Shown here: positions 9,069 through 17,036 of the stretch, piece by piece
Numbering within the stretch: position 1 is the first letter of the stretch
How the letters are laid out: each line of letters opens with the position of its first letter
Assembly: GCF_003841485.1 (NCBI RefSeq)
Contig: NZ_REFY01000002.1
Location: forward strand, 496,001-560,000
Source: Natrarchaeobius halalkaliphilus
Lineage (GTDB): Archaea > Halobacteriota > Halobacteria > Halobacteriales > Natrialbaceae
Direction: 5' to 3'
DNA length: 64,000 bases
The notes under the pieces: generated by a model
Seen by the model: the letters and a program-made list of their open reading frames with translations, nothing else
The model's database searches: none
Told to the model about the DNA's origin: nothing
Translations under genes and position numbers: made by a program

Positions 9069-9530
9069 CTACTCGGACGGACCCTTCGACTCCGTCGAGT
9101 TCGACCCCGAAATCCACTGTGAAACCGGCGTGAGCTCGAGCCGCGGCCGAATCGCGAACCAGAACAGGACGAGCGTCGCACCGAGTGCGTTCGCGACGAC
9201 GTCGCCGGGGTCGAACCCTCGGTCGGGAACGACGGACTGGCCGAGTTCGATCCCGGCCCCGTACAGGGACGTCAGTGCGACCACCAGCACGAACGCCCGC
9301 CACCGACGCCCGTCCCAGGTCGTACTGGTCGCGTACGCGAGCGCGTATCCGAGCGTCGCGTAGGCCACGAAGTGACGCCACTTATCCAGCGGGAGGAAAC
9401 CCGGTTGTGCGGTGTCGACGACCGTCTCCGGCGGGGGCGAGAGGATCGACGCGTAGAAGATGAATGCCGCGACGCCGGCGACGAGCCCCCAGCGAACGAC
9501 GGGAGGAAGGAGCGGAATCCGAACTGTCAT
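9069..9530 (-). CDS. VanZ-family membrane protein
   Basis: 153 residues with about four transmembrane segments. The VanZ-like hallmarks are present: DKWRHFVAYATLGYALAY near residue 48 and ELGQSVVPDRGFDPGDVVANALGA near residue 95, i.e. the conserved E-x-x-Q, R-x-x-D and D-x-x-x-N-x-x-G pattern. VanZ was first linked to low-level teicoplanin resistance in bacteria; in archaea without peptidoglycan its role is unknown and may concern the envelope. It lies 24 bases upstream, in transcription sense downstream, of the membrane protein gene at 9555, so the minus-strand genes 11240 to 9069 could form one transcript. Confidence 0.85.
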   Translation of the reverse strand: MTVRIPLLPPVVRWGLVAGVAAFIFYASILSPPPETVVDTAQPGFLPLDKWRHFVAYATLGYALAYATSTTWDGRRWRAFVLVVALTSLYGAGIELGQSVVPDRGFDPGDVVANALGATLVLFWFAIRPRLELTPVSQWISGSNSTESKGPSE

Positions 9531-9554
9531 GGCAGTAGTCGGCTTCGGAGCGTT

Positions 9555-10322
9555 TCACTGTCGGCTGGAATTAGACTTCGAGTCCGGTTCGTTCCGGCGG
9601 TCGCTCCGATTGGCCGGTCGATCCCGTGCCGATTCCGGCGGCTCCGGCGGTCCGAACGCCGCCCCAAGCGCCCGTGCGATCCTCGTCTCGAGCAACTCGT
9701 CCAGACTCGCACGCGAGCGAAGGCCGACCACAGCGAGACTGGCCGCGAGCAGGTGTGCGAGCACGAGGTCGCTCGAGAGCGAAGCCGCCGACAAGGTAGC
9801 CACCAGCGAACCGACTGCCGCCGCGAGGACGAACAGACTCGCGACCCGAATCGGGCGCTCGCGAACGCTCGAGGCGAACCGACGAGCGCCGGCGACGAGC
9901 AGCGACGTCCTCGCGGCGACCGACGCCTCGCGTTCGATTCGGTCGACGACCCGAATCGCGGGGCCGACGGTCCACGTCTCCCGGAGGTCGATCACGATCA
10001 CGTCCGGCTCGGGTTCCGCGGTGAGCCAGCCGTAGACGAACGACGATTCGACGGCGCGTTTTCCCGCCTTCCCCAGCCCGACTAGCTTCGACGCCGATCC
10101 GATCCGGACGAGCGTCTCGCCGGAACGCGAGACGGCCGAGACGCCGGCCACGAGTCGGGAGCCGGCGAAGGGGGCCTCACGAGTCCGAAGACGCCTCACT
10201 CCTCCTCGAGACGAACGGTCGTCGGCGCGTCCGTCCAGTACGGCTCGAACTCGAGTGCGCACGCCGCTCACCGCCTGTATCAGGATCGATCCGTCGCGCG
10301 CACGGTGGAGCACAGTTTGCAC
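9555..10322 (-). CDS. Haloarchaeal membrane-associated protein of unknown function
   Basis: 255 residues if the GTG at 10322 is used; the first 60 or so residues are Arg-rich and may not belong. The recognisable core begins around VYGWLTAEPEPDVIVIDLRETWTVGPAI, a segment conserved in many haloarchaeal hypothetical proteins, followed by two hydrophobic segments (IRVASLFVLAAAVGSLVATL and LVLAHLLAASLAVVGL) and a charged tail. The stop of the upstream DUF4330 gene is only 6 bases away, so the two are likely an operon. A joint envelope role is plausible but not shown. No enzymatic motif was seen. Confidence 0.65.
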   Translation of the reverse strand: MQTVLHRARDGSILIQAVSGVRTRVRAVLDGRADDRSSRGGVRRLRTREAPFAGSRLVAGVSAVSRSGETLVRIGSASKLVGLGKAGKRAVESSFVYGWLTAEPEPDVIVIDLRETWTVGPAIRVVDRIEREASVAARTSLLVAGARRFASSVRERPIRVASLFVLAAAVGSLVATLSAASLSSDLVLAHLLAASLAVVGLRSRASLDELLETRIARALGAAFGPPEPPESARDRPANRSDRRNEPDSKSNSSRQ

Positions 10323-10328
10323 GGTCGA

Positions 10329-11240
10329 TCACCGACTCGAGTCGCTCGCCGGACCGTCGTCGATCCGGGTGATCTCGCCCTCGACGGTGATCGTCTCGAG
10401 CGCGAGTTCGATGGTGGTTCCGATCCCGATCCGTTCGTCCCGGAAGGTGAGTCCCGTCTCCGACTCGACCGTCTGCAGCGTGACGGAAAGCGTCACGTCC
10501 TCGTGTCGCGGATGCTCGCGCTCGTGGACGGTTCCGTCGTCGCTCTCGAGGACGACCGTCGCGGGCTCCCGGTCGACCGCCTCGAGCGTCGCGATCGTCT
10601 CGCCGCGCACCGTCTCGGTCAGACCGACCTCGAGTCCCTCGGCGACGGCGGGAGAGACGTCTCGTGCCTCGAGTTCGGCGGTGGTCGTCGTCGCGTCGAT
10701 CGGGAGAGTCGGGTCGACTCCGACGTCGGTAACCGTTCCCGAAATCGCGTACGCGCCGAAGTCGAGACGCAGTTCGCGACCGAGTTTGAGCGGAACGCCG
10801 GCGAAGCGTTCCGTGGTTCGACCTCGATCGTTCTCGAGCACGACGTCGTCGAGTTCAGTCTGGATCGTCACGAGGGGGCGATCCGCGACGGGCGTGGCGT
10901 GGACGTCCGTCACCGTGATTTCCTCGTCCGCGTCCTCGAGGCGGGCGACGTCACCCGCCTCGAGCCGATCCACGACGTACGCCGGCTGCTCGCCGAGGTC
11001 GACGGTCGCGTATCTGGTCTCGAACTCGGACCCGTTGCCAGAAACAACCGCGACGCCAGCGAGCAACACGACGAGGAGCAATCCAACGGCGAGCGCGCCG
11101 GTAGCGCCGAGGTTCGTTCCCGGTCCGTCGCCGCCCGAGACGACTGCGATTCCCGCGACAATGATGGAGACGACCAGAACGATCGCGATCGCGTCGATGA
11201 CATTGACGACGCCGAGGAGATTGCCGTCGTCGTCTATCAT
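10329..11240 (-). CDS. DUF4330-domain membrane protein
   Basis: About 303 residues from the ATG at 11240 (MIDDDGNLLGVVNVIDAIAI), which matches the usual start of DUF4330 proteins; an upstream ATG at 11261 would add seven residues. The N-terminus has a first membrane helix (VVNVIDAIAIVLVVSIIVAGIA) and a second (ALAVGLLLVVLLAGVAVVSG). The rest is a beta-rich extracytoplasmic region with repeated short strands separated by Asp/Glu-rich turns. The family occurs in bacteria and archaea, often near capsule or envelope genes, without a known reaction. The gene is followed after 6 bases by the membrane protein at 10322. Confidence 0.82.
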   Translation of the reverse strand: MIDDDGNLLGVVNVIDAIAIVLVVSIIVAGIAVVSGGDGPGTNLGATGALAVGLLLVVLLAGVAVVSGNGSEFETRYATVDLGEQPAYVVDRLEAGDVARLEDADEEITVTDVHATPVADRPLVTIQTELDDVVLENDRGRTTERFAGVPLKLGRELRLDFGAYAISGTVTDVGVDPTLPIDATTTTAELEARDVSPAVAEGLEVGLTETVRGETIATLEAVDREPATVVLESDDGTVHEREHPRHEDVTLSVTLQTVESETGLTFRDERIGIGTTIELALETITVEGEITRIDDGPASDSSR

Positions 11241-11645
11241 TAGTATCATTCGCCAGGGCACAGTTCGATGCGTTCACCATCGGCGGGTCGATGGCATCGT
11301 TCGTTCGAACGGTTCTCGTCCGGCGGCCGTGATCGGGGTCGGATCTTGAGCTTCGATGCGACGGGGAACATAGGCCGTTCCACAGTATTGGTCGCTAAAT
11401 AGCTTGCCCGCTAGTTCGTCGTTTCGACGCTCCGTACGCTGGTACGTATCGATCCGTTGTGGTCAGTACGCCGTCTCGACGTCTCGCACTTCAGACGCTT
11501 TCGGTTCCACTCCGCGGAAGGCGGCGGCAAACCGACTCCCGTAGAGGGTACAGCACGCTTGAGCGAGAACGACAGAACGGATACGGCGCGAACAAAGAAG
11601 ACGAAAACGAAAGCTCGAATACGTCAGGCGAACGGGTGCGAAGAG
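11241..11645. other. Intergenic region between DUF4330 and the repeat protein
   Basis: About 405 bases with no convincing gene. It contains the promoter side of the DUF4330 gene and the 3' end of the repeat-protein transcript. ORFs here have poor codon use and look like chance reading frames. Confidence 0.5.
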
Positions 11646-13169
11646 TTACGATGCGGCCCAGACGTTCGTCGCGGCAACGGAGCCGAACTGGACGTTCTCG
11701 TTCTCCTGCATGGTGATCTGGGCTGTGCCCGCATCACCGTCTTCAGCGATCGCGATTGCGCCCTGGTGTTCGACGATGTTCTCCTGCGTGATGAACTGAC
11801 TCTGTGCGATCTGTGCGGTGGCGTACTGCTCGGCATCGTTCGTCTGCATCGCGTTACCTGCGTAGTCGAACGAGAGTCCCGGTGCACCCTCGACGTCGTC
11901 GCCGCCGACGTTCACGCTCGAGGTTTCGGTGTGGACGACGTCCTCGTAGACGTGAGCCGGGCTCGCGTACACATTGAGCGCGTCGGCGTATCCGACCTGT
12001 GCGTTGATGTTCTGCTGGTAGGCGAGCTGGACTGCGGTGGCGTTGTTTCCGTTCGTCGCGATCGCCATCGCGGTGTTCTGGAGGTTGACGTTCATCTGTT
12101 CGGCGCTCTGTTCCTGTGTCACTTCGGCGGTTGCAGACTGGATCTCGTCACCGTTTTTCTTGTGGTGGTCGTCTTTCTTATCACCGTGAAGGTCCGTTAT
12201 CTCGCGTTCGACCTCGACGATCGAGCTGTCGTCACTGCCGGCGGTTGCGACGTGCATCCCTGCGAGTGAGGAGATGACGTTTTCGGCATCGGCGACACCG
12301 ATCTGTTCGTTGAAGTTCGTCTGTTCTGTGATCTGGATGGCCGTTGCCGTGCTGTCCTCACCGACGGCGATGGCGACGGCACCGTCCTGTTCGTTGTAGT
12401 TCACCTGATCGGCTTCCTGGCCCTGTTCGACAGATGCGGTCGCGGACTGATCCTCGAAGGTTCCGTCGCCCGCGTAGACGTTGGTCGCGTTCGCAACGCC
12501 CTGTTGCAGGTTCTGGTTGGACTGTTGGGACTGCTGGAGAGCGGTCGCTTCGCTGCCGTCCTCTGCGATCGCGAACGCCGTGTTCTGTTCGTTGTAGTTC
12601 AGCTGGCCGACGACCTGGCTCTGGGTCACCTGCGCGTCAGCGGCCTGGTCGGGGTCGACCTCGCCTTTATCGCCTTTCTTGTCGGCGACGCCCCAGCCAT
12701 CGAACTGCTCGCCGTCACCGTTGCCGATGACGACGTGGACAGTCCCGACGTCCTCGAAGTGGGTTTCCTGGACGTTTACGGCTGACGCATCAGCGAACTG
12801 TTCATTATCGTTGTACTGTGTGGCCTCCTGTACGGCGGTTGCCTCGCCACCGTCGATCGAGATAGACACCGCGTTTGACTGCTGGTTGATGTTTACCTGA
12901 TCGACATCCTGGTACTGATTGACCTCCGCGTCAGCGACCTGGTCACCCGAGGCCATCTCCTCGATATACTCATCGAGCGTCATGTCCCCGAGGTCGGCAC
13001 CGAACACCAGATACAACTCTTCACCGTTCTCGAGCGCGTGAACGCCATTGGAATCGGGGTCTTCACCTGCCGCGGCTGCCGGAGCGCCGGCAGCGATCAT
13101 CGATAGGGCAACGATACACGCGAGAAGGACCGTCGTACACTGTGAACGTAACGTCGTCGTGGTAGTCAT
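11646..13169 (-). CDS. Secreted protein with five curlin-like Gln/Asn repeats (candidate amyloid)
   Basis: 507 residues from the ATG at 13169, chosen because it begins a good signal peptide: TTTTTLRSQC, a hydrophobic core (VLLACIVALSMIAAG) and APAAAAG. The frame is open a further 21 codons upstream. The mature protein holds five repeats of about 55 residues with a consensus A-x-A-x-V-x-Q-x-Q-x3-Q-x-N-x-N-x-Q, a short AxAIAxD turn, then ATAxQxxxQxNxNxQxGxAxA-x-N-V. Repeats begin near ADAEVNQYQ, ADAQVTQSQ, ATASVEQGQ, ATAEVTQEQ and ATAQIAQSQ. Regular alternation of Gln/Asn ladders with small residues resembles curlin (CsgA) strand-turn-strand units. A His/Lys-rich spacer (DKKDDHHKKNGD) separates repeats 3 and 4. 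A related small protein is divergently encoded at 13833. Surface fibre formation is inferred. Confidence 0.82.
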   Translation of the reverse strand: MTTTTTLRSQCTTVLLACIVALSMIAAGAPAAAAGEDPDSNGVHALENGEELYLVFGADLGDMTLDEYIEEMASGDQVADAEVNQYQDVDQVNINQQSNAVSISIDGGEATAVQEATQYNDNEQFADASAVNVQETHFEDVGTVHVVIGNGDGEQFDGWGVADKKGDKGEVDPDQAADAQVTQSQVVGQLNYNEQNTAFAIAEDGSEATALQQSQQSNQNLQQGVANATNVYAGDGTFEDQSATASVEQGQEADQVNYNEQDGAVAIAVGEDSTATAIQITEQTNFNEQIGVADAENVISSLAGMHVATAGSDDSSIVEVEREITDLHGDKKDDHHKKNGDEIQSATAEVTQEQSAEQMNVNLQNTAMAIATNGNNATAVQLAYQQNINAQVGYADALNVYASPAHVYEDVVHTETSSVNVGGDDVEGAPGLSFDYAGNAMQTNDAEQYATAQIAQSQFITQENIVEHQGAIAIAEDGDAGTAQITMQENENVQFGSVAATNVWAAS

Positions 13170-13832
13170 GGTTCGTTTGACATGAGCCGTGAGAGTCTTT
13201 TGTTTCTGTATCTCATCGGCGCAAACCGTCATATCCTGATGAGAGACTTTGTTATCTGTAAATTGAAGCGTCTGTGAACCGGCCTACTCGTTCGAAGTCG
13301 GATGCTTCGACATCGAAACCGAATACTTACGCCGAGAACGTACGAGTAGGCGGCGTGTGAAACGGTGGTGGCGCATCTCGAATGCAACACTCCTTCGGCC
13401 GAAAGCGGAGAAGGCTCGCGGCGGACCGATCGGATGTCGAAACTGTTTTGCCGGTCAACCGTCGTCTGTGATCGAGTGTCTCCTGGTCGCTCAGTCGACA
13501 TCGACGGACTCGATTTCGCGACACAGTGGAGAACACTAACAATCGAGCGCAGCACAGCATAGGGTCGCCGTACCGACGACGAAAACACCGTCACCAGCTC
13601 TGGAATCTCCTGAAAAGCGACTGTACCGTCGTTCAGGCCCGCTAACCCGGTAATTCGGGCTGAAACTGTTCTTCGGGTTGAAGTGGGACTCTGTGTTGAC
13701 TCCAATCGGGCAACGCGTCATAGCGGGAGAGTTATAGCCGGAAGACGGTGTTTATCGGGGCGAAACGGGCCTCTTCGGTCGGCTCCAGTTTCGTCACGGC
13801 CCGCGAAGGTGATGCGTGCCTATTGGATAACT
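13170..13832. promoter_or_regulatory. Shared divergent intergenic region of the two repeat proteins
   Basis: About 660 bases between two divergent genes for secreted repeat proteins, long enough for two promoters and regulatory sites. The open frames here (for example minus-strand 13229-13705) have poor composition and no domain, so I treat them as non-coding. I could not pick out a clear operator. Confidence 0.4.
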
Positions 13833-14222
13833 ATGACAACGAGAAAGCGCGCACTCACGATGACACTTACAGTAGCAATGCTCGGCAGCCTCATGTTTAT
13901 GGGGTTCGCCGGAACTGCAGCCGCGTCGAACCACGACGTCGATCAGGAGACGGGCGATGCAACGGTCACCATCGAGACCGCCCAGCAAAACAACAACGCA
14001 CAGGTCGGTATCGCTGAGTCCTCCTCGAGTTCGTTCTCATTCGGATCAGCAGCATCCGACTCGAAGTACGGAAACACGATCGGTGCCTCATCTTACAGCA
14101 GCTCGAACGCTGAAGTGAATCAGGTCCAGGTCGGTAGTCAGAGCAACTCCGCGAACATAGAGAACGTCGGAGCAGAGAGCGGCGATAACGTCAACTTCAA
14201 CTTCGGCGGCTTCAACGGATAA
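13833..14222 (+). CDS. Small secreted curlin-like repeat protein
   Basis: 129 residues from the ATG at 13833, which opens a typical Sec signal peptide: TTRKRALTM, a hydrophobic core (TLTVAMLGSLMFMGFAG) and TAAAS. An ATG at 13812 is also in frame. The mature part is about 95 residues and contains two units like those of the large neighbour: ATVTIETAQQNNNAQVGIAES and AEVNQVQVGSQSNSANIENVG, separated by a Ser/Gly-rich stretch (SSSSSFSFGSAASDSKYGN), and ends in a NVNFNFGGFNG tail. Like the large protein it has Q-x-N/N-x-Q ladders. It could be a minor fibre subunit or nucleator, in analogy to CsgB, but this is inference. Confidence 0.75.
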   Translation: MTTRKRALTMTLTVAMLGSLMFMGFAGTAAASNHDVDQETGDATVTIETAQQNNNAQVGIAESSSSSFSFGSAASDSKYGNTIGASSYSSSNAEVNQVQVGSQSNSANIENVGAESGDNVNFNFGGFNG

Positions 14223-14807: not shown

Positions 14808-17036
14808 ATGAACGAAGTTCAACTGGAGGTTGCCAAGGCGTACCCGAACGACTCGGGCCGTGGTATCGCCCGACTCGATCCGGACACTCTGTTACATCTA
14901 AAGCTCAGTCCGGGCGACATCATCGAGATCGAAGGTGCGGACACGACCGCTGCGAAGGTGTGGCGTGCGGACCGACAGGACTGGAACACGGACACGGTAC
15001 GTATCGACGGTTTCACCCGACAGAACGCCGACGTGGGGATCGGTGAACGGGTGACGATCCGAAAGGCGGAAGCGACCAAGGCGGACACGCTCGTGCTCGC
15101 ACCGCCCGAGGAGGCGTCGGTCCAGTTCGGCTCCGACGCCGCCGGCATGGTGAAACGGCAGATCTTGAAGCGGCCCGTGGTCGGCCGGGACATCGTTCCG
15201 GTCATGTCCTCGACGAACCACCCGTTCATGCGCTCGCCGGGCCAGGCGATCCCGCTGATCGCCGTCGAAACAGAGCCCGAAGGCGTCGTTCTCATCACCG
15301 AGGACACGGACGTCGAGTTGCGCGAAGAGCCGATTTCCGGCTTCGAGAAAACGGGCGGCGGCATCACCTACGAGGATATCGGCGGCTTACAGAGCGAAAT
15401 CCAGCGGGTCAGGGAGATGGTCGAGCTCCCGATGAAACACCCCCAGATCTTCAAGAAGCTGGGTATCGAGCCACCGCAAGGTGTCTTGCTCCACGGGCCG
15501 CCGGGGACGGGCAAGACGCTACTGGCCAAGGCCGTCGCCAACGAGACGTCGGCCAGCTTCTTCTCCATCGCCGGCCCGGAGATCATCTCGAAGTACTACG
15601 GCGAGTCCGAACAGCAACTCAGGGAGATCTTCGAGGACGCGAGCGAGGAGGCACCCGCCATCATCTTCATCGACGAACTCGACTCCATCGCGCCCAAACG
15701 CGAGGACGTCACCGGCGAGGTCGAACGCCGGGTCGTCGCACAGCTTCTGACCATGATGGACGGCCTCGAGGCCCGCGGACAGGTCATCGTCATCGCGGCG
15801 ACCAACCGGGTCGATAGCGTCGATCCCGCGCTACGCCGACCGGGGCGGTTCGACCGCGAGATCGAGATCGGCGTCCCCGACGAGACGGGTCGCGAGGAGA
15901 TCCTCCAGATACACACGCGCGGAATGCCGCTTTCGGACGACGTCAATCTCTCCCATCTGGCCGACGAAACGCACGGTTTCGTCGGTGCGGACATCGAGAG
16001 CCTGACCAAGGAAGCCGCGATGAAGGCGCTGCGACGGTACCTACCGGAGATCGACCTCGACGAGGAGGACATCCCGCCGAGCCTCATCGATCGAATGATC
16101 GTCAAGCGCACCGACTTCCGGGGTGCGCTGAACGAAGTCGAGCCCTCGGCGATGCGGGAAGTGTTAGTCGAGTTGCCAAAGATTTCCTGGGACGACGTCG
16201 GCGGCCTCCACGAAGCGAAAGACCAGGTCAAAGAGTCCGTCGAGTGGCCGCTGAACAATCCCGGACGCTTCGACAGGCTCGGAATCGATCCACCGGCCGG
16301 CGTCCTGCTATACGGTCCGCCCGGAACCGGAAAGACGCTCATGGCGAAAGCGGTCGCCAACGAGACCAACGCGAACTTCATCTCGGTCCGTGGACCACAG
16401 CTGCTCTCGAAGTGGGTCGGTGAATCGGAGAAGGCGATCCGTCAGACCTTCCGCAAAGCGCGGCAGGTCTCCCCGACGGTAATCTTCTTCGACGAACTCG
16501 ACGCGCTTGCTCCGGGGCGGGGCGGCGAAGTCGGTTCGAACGTTTCCGAGCGAGTCGTCAATCAGTTGCTGACCGAACTCGACGGCCTCGAGGAGATGGA
16601 GAACGTGATGGTCATCGGCGCGACCAACCGTCCGGACATGATCGATCCCGCGCTCCTCCGATCGGGCCGGTTCGATCGACTCGTCATGATCGGCCAGCCG
16701 GACGTGGACGGACGCGAACGGATCCTCGAGATTCACACGGCGGACATGCCGCTTGCCGCCGACGTCACGCTGCGTGAAGTCGCAGAGATCACGGACGGCT
16801 ACGTCGGCAGCGACCTCGAGTCGATAGCCCGTGAAGCGGCGATCGAGGCCCTGCGTGAGGATCACGATGCCGACGTCGTCGAGATGCGACACTTCCGACA
16901 GGCGATGGAGAGCGTGCGGCCGACCATCACCGACGACATCCTCGACTACTACGAGCAGATCGAAGAGGAGTTCAAAGGTGGCTCGAGCGGTCCGGACCCG
17001 ACCGGCCGTCGCGGCAGCCGCATCGGCTTCCAGTAG
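14808..17036 (+). CDS. cdc48: Cdc48/VAT-type AAA+ ATPase
   Basis: 742 residues, the normal length for archaeal VAT/Cdc48. The N-terminal domain (about residues 1-180) is the double-psi beta-barrel region ([21 protein letters not shown]). The first AAA module has Walker [18 protein letters not shown] near residue 230 and Walker [13 protein letters not shown]; the second has Walker [18 protein letters not shown] near residue 505 and Walker [16 protein letters not shown]. Each module has an Arg finger region ([13 protein letters not shown] and [12 protein letters not shown]). The hexameric unfoldase extracts proteins for the proteasome in the cytoplasm. Haloarchaea usually carry more than one paralogue. 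The ATG at 14808 has no internal competitor. Confidence 0.96.

Follow-up and report, generated by a model that had tools for sequence, protein, structure and literature searches.

A divergent pair of secreted Gln/Asn-repeat proteins in Natrialbaceae as a candidate functional-amyloid-like system

Introduction

Two bacterial systems and one archaeal protein offer the closest described points of comparison for the genes presented here. FapC of Pseudomonas is made of imperfect repeats of about 52 residues, each forming one cross-beta layer, with networks of Asn and Gln and with disordered linkers (PMC12392863). Curlin repeats are shorter, being defined as units of 19–24 residues with the patterns X6QXGX2NX10 or QX10Q (PMC3521004, PMC10192328), and one archaeal protein with curli-like repeats was noted by Dueholm et al. 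2012 (PMC3521004). In methanogens, MspA is the sheath amyloid of Methanothrix and Methanospirillum (PMC6242892). One study of haloarchaeal biofilms reports amyloid-like staining (PMC4180959), and no protein assigned to it was found in the literature searched.

We analysed a gene pair of Natrarchaeobius halalkaliphilus that lies in a stretch of 64,000 nucleotides, hereafter the window. We call the genes BIG and small, and a preliminary description of the DNA had presented their products as curlin-like.

Results

The two genes form a conserved pair in Natrialbaceae

BIG and small are divergent, with 663 bp between their ATGs (Table 1), in agreement with the earlier proposal of a divergent secreted pair about 660 bp apart. 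Each has a single copy in the genome. A search at the protein level recovered BIG from 28 of 61 genomes (its own and those of relatives), all 28 belonging to one taxonomic family, and a scan of the genome collection found it at 37 named loci, all in Natrialbaceae. The nearest relatives, in Natrarchaeobius, are about 82% identical. A divergent small gene is found upstream of BIG in 33 of the 37 loci, with between one and four copies per locus and usually between BIG and a gene for a CDC48-type AAA ATPase; the loci without it include one that ends at a contig end (L047) and one with only 2 kb of upstream sequence (L071). Since orthologues occur at this many loci and their pairwise dN/dS is 0.16–0.28, the genes are not spurious, and the pair is, as judged from these comparisons, real and selected.

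The family is unannotated: no Pfam or NCBIfam model fits it. Searches of BIG and small against Pfam, NCBIfam and PHROGs gave nothing above cut-off, and searches of PDB sequences found no relative. Two matches were dismissed, PGA_cap for small (20 bits, the cut-off being 27) and a PHROG of no known function (E 0.051).

Concerning the neighbourhood, the CDC48-type AAA ATPase gene of the window (14808-17036) has counterparts flanking the pair in many loci, which implies no functional link. Downstream of BIG (9069-11261) lie a VanZ-like gene, a gene of unknown product and a DUF4330 gene, which are near BIG in several genera at varying spacing. In Natronorubrum bangense, the BIG-small locus occurs on both the chromosome and a plasmid (L056/L057), with the same identity values.

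Table 1. Positions in the window of the two genes, their repeats and the conserved non-coding region.
Feature	Position	Strand	Basis
BIG, 507-aa secreted protein with five Gln/Asn repeats	11646..13169	-	homologue searches and dN/dS
Signal peptide of BIG, residues 1-34, Sec-type, no RR motif	13068..13169	-	by eye, conserved in alignment
Conserved N-terminal element ALENGEELYLVFGADLGDxTLEEYIE, residues 42-78	12936..13046	-	alignment, profile
Repeat R1, residues 79-133	12771..12935	-	motif, AlphaFold2, alignment
Linker 1 with conserved VGxVxxVxGNGDGxxFDGWGVADKKGDK element	12642..12770	-	alignment
Repeat R2, residues 177-232	12474..12641	-	motif, AlphaFold2, alignment
Repeat R3, residues 243-299	12273..12443	-	motif, AlphaFold2, alignment
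Repeat R4, residues 346-401	11967..12134	-	motif, AlphaFold2, alignment
Repeat R5, residues 450-504	11658..11822	-	motif, AlphaFold2, alignment
Conserved non-coding region 5' of BIG (CAAC..CAGATAACAAAGTC..TCATCGGGATA..GGTTYGCGCCG..GAAACAAAAGACTCTCACGG..ATG)	13170..13310	-	cross-genus alignment
small, 129-aa secreted partner, divergent from BIG	13833..14222	+	ORF, homologues at BIG loci
Second-half repeat unit in small (GDATVTIETAQQNNNAQVGIAESS)	13947..14024	+	15.5 bits to BIG repeat HMM
First-half repeat unit in small (NAEVNQVQVGSQSNSAN)	14106..14156	+	4.0 bits, weak alone

The repeats of BIG are predicted to form long strands

The 507-residue protein with a signal peptide and five repeats of about 55 residues that had been described from the letters is confirmed, and its repeat landmarks are far above those of shuffled sequences: Q-x3-Q-x-N-x-N-x-Q occurs 9 times (0.003 on average after shuffling) and A-x-A-x-[VI]-x-Q-x-Q 5 times (0.02). 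Across 180 repeats, five from each of 36 proteins, Gln or Asn accounts for 94–100% of residues at repeat positions 7, 9, 13, 15, 17 and 19, and Ala for 82–95% at positions 22, 24 and 26; the alternate positions between them are variable. Read from the alignment, such alternating conservation is typical of long strands that bury one face. AlphaFold2, run on 36 sequences, predicts strands of about 19, 7 and 26 residues in every repeat, with pLDDT of about 85–94 in most repeat cores and below 50 in the linkers, which are 10–48 residues long and predicted to be disordered. A separate model of R2 and R3 has the same 19-7-26 pattern (mean pLDDT 76). The number of repeats is nearly constant: by a strict pattern, five are counted in 31 of the 36 Sec-type members and in 11 of the 15 Tat-type ones (see below). 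In the window protein, the repeats start and stop near the ends of the mature chain, with no sign of capping domains. By eye, the N-terminal element (ELYLVFGADLGDxTLEEYIE) and the element in linker 1 resemble variants of a single short module.

The partner carries a repeat of the same kind

We scored the small proteins, with signal peptides removed, against an HMM built from the BIG repeats. Scores above 10 bits were obtained by 30 of 58 candidate small proteins and by 1 of 1,180 shuffled decoys; none of these decoys passed 15 bits, the window protein scoring 15.5 and the best protein, from another species, 46.5. The major and minor subunits thus share one repeat, and the proposed pairing of a larger protein with a smaller paralogue holds. 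The preliminary description had also seen two shorter units of the repeat in small. Their kinship with the BIG repeat is upheld, but they are not two small copies: they correspond to the halves of a single BIG repeat in reverse order, the second half coming first. In Haloterrigena salina and Natronorubrum bangense, small consists of one complete repeat. The signal peptide of these proteins is near-invariant (MKRxLxxTLTVALIGSLMFMGFAGTAAA). In some small proteins of Natrinema, the two half-repeats are separated by an inserted domain of about 100 residues that contains Cys (..YATFEWDGDDDEF..TCTF..) (L054:7451-8260, L059:7512-8300, L062:6509-7291, L063:1498-2256 on the minus strand).

BIG falls outside the curlin family by its sequence

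The curlin profile PF07012 matches none of 36 members of the BIG family, and nothing in the Natrarchaeobius halalkaliphilus genome at E<=10. Curlin motifs occur in BIG at chance level (X6QXGX2NX10 once, 0.34 being expected; QX10Q four times, 5.3 being expected), and the predicted unit is one of 55 residues with long strands, not a beta-arch of 19–23 residues. As a statement of family membership, the label curlin-like is, on these sequence grounds, wrong. The remark that no csg-type secretion gene is adjacent can be extended for CsgG (PF03783), which a search with positive controls found to be absent from the whole genome. This archaeon has no outer membrane, and a CsgG channel is not expected in it.

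In a related genus, g29, bona fide proteins of the curlin-repeat type are encoded by three genomes (G031, G075 and G108; PF07012, E 2.3e-45). Because these score −14 bits against the BIG repeat HMM, the distinction between BIG and curlin is real. The haloarchaeal curlin loci (L078:1300-2037 on the minus strand, L079:994-1617, and L080) have canonical 19-residue repeats, and the curlin-repeat genes of g29 adjoin a gene for a conserved secreted protein of 258 residues.

At the level of predicted folds, BIG compares weakly with the curlin beta-solenoid (8c50, Z 3.1 and E 4.7; 8enq, E 1.1), the best Z given by VIA-align being 3.1. When the R2-R3 model was searched with Foldseek, the first two ranks went to FapC amyloid fibrils (E 0.029 and 0.13) and the fifth to CsgA of E. 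coli, none of them significant; the match to 9u4u (E 0.029, prob 0.04) is a hint only. VIA-align of the same model gave no Z of 2 or above, a viral fold library gave nothing significant, and a search of PDB sequences with the A3 profile retrieved no FapC chain at E<=10. BIG matches FapC in layout only, that is, in repeats of about 52–55 residues, disordered linkers and inward Asn and Gln. Despite the non-significant fold match, FapC looks like a better structural analogue of BIG than curlin.

The DNA between the genes

The stretch of about 140 bp that precedes BIG is conserved across genera (Table 1). The indels in this region are not multiples of three, so that it is probably a promoter with a leader rather than coding sequence, and a longer reading frame was rejected for this reason. 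It resembles a promoter and leader under a specific regulator; its core, GATAACAAAGTC, occurs exactly once in the genome. A structured RNA was rejected as well (4 pairs, −1.6 kcal/mol), and a search of the region against Rfam gave no match. The small gene has conserved upstream elements of its own (GAAACcGTTnTTCGGGTTcAAG and CCGGGCAACGCGtCACA, within 13600-13700 of the window; 48 upstream regions). We do not claim GAAACYG as an operator common to both promoters: it occurs 16 times where about 4 are expected, yet is missing at many loci.

Members of the family differ in signal and anchor

Judging from their signals and C termini, family members are targeted in three modes: Sec secretion (the window protein), anchoring through PGF-CTERM, and a separate Tat clade. 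The Sec-type signal first proposed for BIG was found again when its N terminus was read by eye; the RRxFLK-like Tat motif is absent from it, and the protein ends in TNVWAAS, without a PGF-CTERM signal. All six C-terminally extended orthologues that were tested exceed the TIGR04126 cut-off for PGF-CTERM (E 6e-7 to 2e-9), and orthologues bearing it occur in several genera.

The profile of the N-terminal element recovered a second subfamily, inside and outside Natrialbaceae, with the length and five-repeat layout of BIG, twin-arginine signals (RRDYVKG, RRGYLKG, RRKFLKG) and basic C-terminal tails. The assignment to Tat is a reading of this motif, present in most members of the clade, with TIGR01409 below its cut-off. 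In the phylogenetic tree, the 15 rows of this subfamily and the 36 Sec/PGF rows are split on one branch with support 100/100. No gene for a small partner was detected in the flanks of the Tat genes, which cover 12, 7 and 14 kb at three loci and about 1.5 kb elsewhere. Among the genomes of the class, 80 of 371 gave a match, a few of them through the signal peptide only. Examples from other haloarchaeal families (L125:4927-6414, L126:4760-6256 and L127:6385-7899, all on the minus strand) have lysine-rich C-terminal tails, some with a terminal Cys. Export by Sec alone, as suggested in the preliminary description, thus suits the copy in the window but not the whole family, given the Tat signals of one clade and the PGF-CTERM anchors of some orthologues.

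Discussion

A model of stacked repeats and its alternatives

The reading that we favour, with a confidence somewhat short of even, is that BIG is a haloarchaeal surface or matrix protein whose repeats stack as cross-beta layers held by Gln/Asn ladders, in the manner of a functional amyloid, with small as a one-layer accessory subunit. The amyloid-like mechanism is plausible but unproven. BIG would be secreted to the cell surface or the extracellular matrix, a targeting suggested by the PGF-CTERM scores of the extended orthologues; it would be exported by Sec and released in the organism of the window, and anchored via PGF-CTERM in related species. Each repeat would make a single layer of long beta strands in which alternate side chains (Ala, Val, Gln, Asn) point inward, and the Gln and Asn side chains would form ladders that stack the repeats into five layers per molecule, from which the acidic disordered linkers would loop out. 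The alternating conservation of Gln and Asn, the 19-7-26 strands, the ranks of FapC and CsgA among the non-significant Foldseek matches and the match to the FapC layout are the reasons for proposing such layers. Stacking may then carry on from one BIG molecule to the next to give a functional-amyloid-like fibre or sheet, with a conceivable function in adhesion or biofilms. Small would add one layer of the BIG type as a nucleator, a cap or a junction, a role suggested by its match to the repeat HMM and by the retention of the pair in most loci.

BIG might instead be a folded, non-polymerising adhesin or S-layer-associated protein, beta-solenoid-like or beta-sandwich, with exactly five modules and with small as a binding partner or capping module, which we regard as possible if rather doubtful. 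It stays in play because the repeat count is nearly fixed at five in both clades and because the Tat signals imply export of close relatives in the folded state, a property that suits a folded beta-repeat protein no less well than an amyloid precursor. The distinct and conserved linkers and N-terminal element, and the PGF-CTERM anchors in several genera, are also in its favour. However, such a protein accords poorly with repeats that run close to both mature ends and with the lack of any sign of capping domains, and a one-repeat partner bearing the same ladder points to stacking end to end or along edges and away from a closed fold.

We consider it unlikely that BIG is a soluble, salt-adapted and disordered matrix or mucin-like polymer, in which the Gln/Asn periodicity would result from low complexity only. 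Its strong acidity (computed pI 4.05, net charge about −75) and the predicted disorder of its linkers would suit such a polymer, but Gln, Asn and Ala are conserved strictly by position on one strand face and strands are confidently predicted in the repeats. Finally, that BIG and small are true curli homologues of the CsgA/CsgB type, acquired from bacteria, is very improbable: the Gln/Asn ladder with Ala/Val alternation resembles the curlin kernel, the pair has a major and a minor subunit, and CsgA is among the weak fold matches, but the profile and motif results, the genome without CsgG and the negative score of the bona fide curlins of g29 refute membership by sequence, and only shared structural ancestry could revive the idea.

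Should the stacked-layer reading be right, haloarchaea may possess a class of repeat functional amyloid that evolved within them and is distinct from curli and Fap at the sequence level. Its major subunit would have five layers and its partner one, and a single architecture would be deployed by three routes: release through Sec, display anchored by archaeosortase, and Tat export of a presumably pre-folded Gln/Asn ladder. We put this forward tentatively, as a proposal with a lower chance of being right than wrong. The existence of the Tat clade prompts one to ask if a ladder of the amyloid type could leave the cell in a folded state. For the amyloid-like staining of haloarchaeal biofilms, the BIG family is a concrete and testable candidate with named cultured hosts in Natrialba, Natrinema, Halobiforma and Natronorubrum. 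Provided that BIG does polymerise, Archaea would have an equivalent of curli and Fap, one that functions at salt saturation and needs no specialised pore in an outer membrane.

Comparison with known systems

MspA provides a precedent for an extracellular amyloid in Archaea, but it is a tubular sheath protein of methanogens and is set beside BIG by description only. Closer in lineage, the curlin-repeat proteins of g29 are secreted archaeal proteins with a Gln/Asn repeat and a signal peptide containing KR. Their genomes encode BIG orthologues as well, and they differ from BIG in having true PF07012 repeats of 19 residues. With CsgA and CsgB of curli, BIG and small have in common a motif of alternating hydrophobic residues ended by Gln or Asn, a major and a minor subunit with a common repeat, and secretion. 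They differ in the unit, a beta-arch of 19–23 residues in curli and a long-strand repeat of 55 residues in BIG, and in genetic organisation, since curli genes form the csg operon whereas BIG and small are divergent in a genome without CsgG. The number of curlin repeats varies widely, unlike the near-constant five of BIG.

The comparison with FapC and FapB of Pseudomonas (PDB 9u4u, 9nqd) goes further. These proteins have three repeats rather than five, with another motif and no detectable sequence similarity to BIG, whose host is an archaeon without outer membrane, in which the fap porin is therefore not expected. Yet both systems combine imperfect repeats of about 52–55 residues, conserved inward Asn and Gln, variable disordered linkers and a major with a minor subunit, and they would also share, if our reading of BIG is right, one cross-beta layer per repeat.
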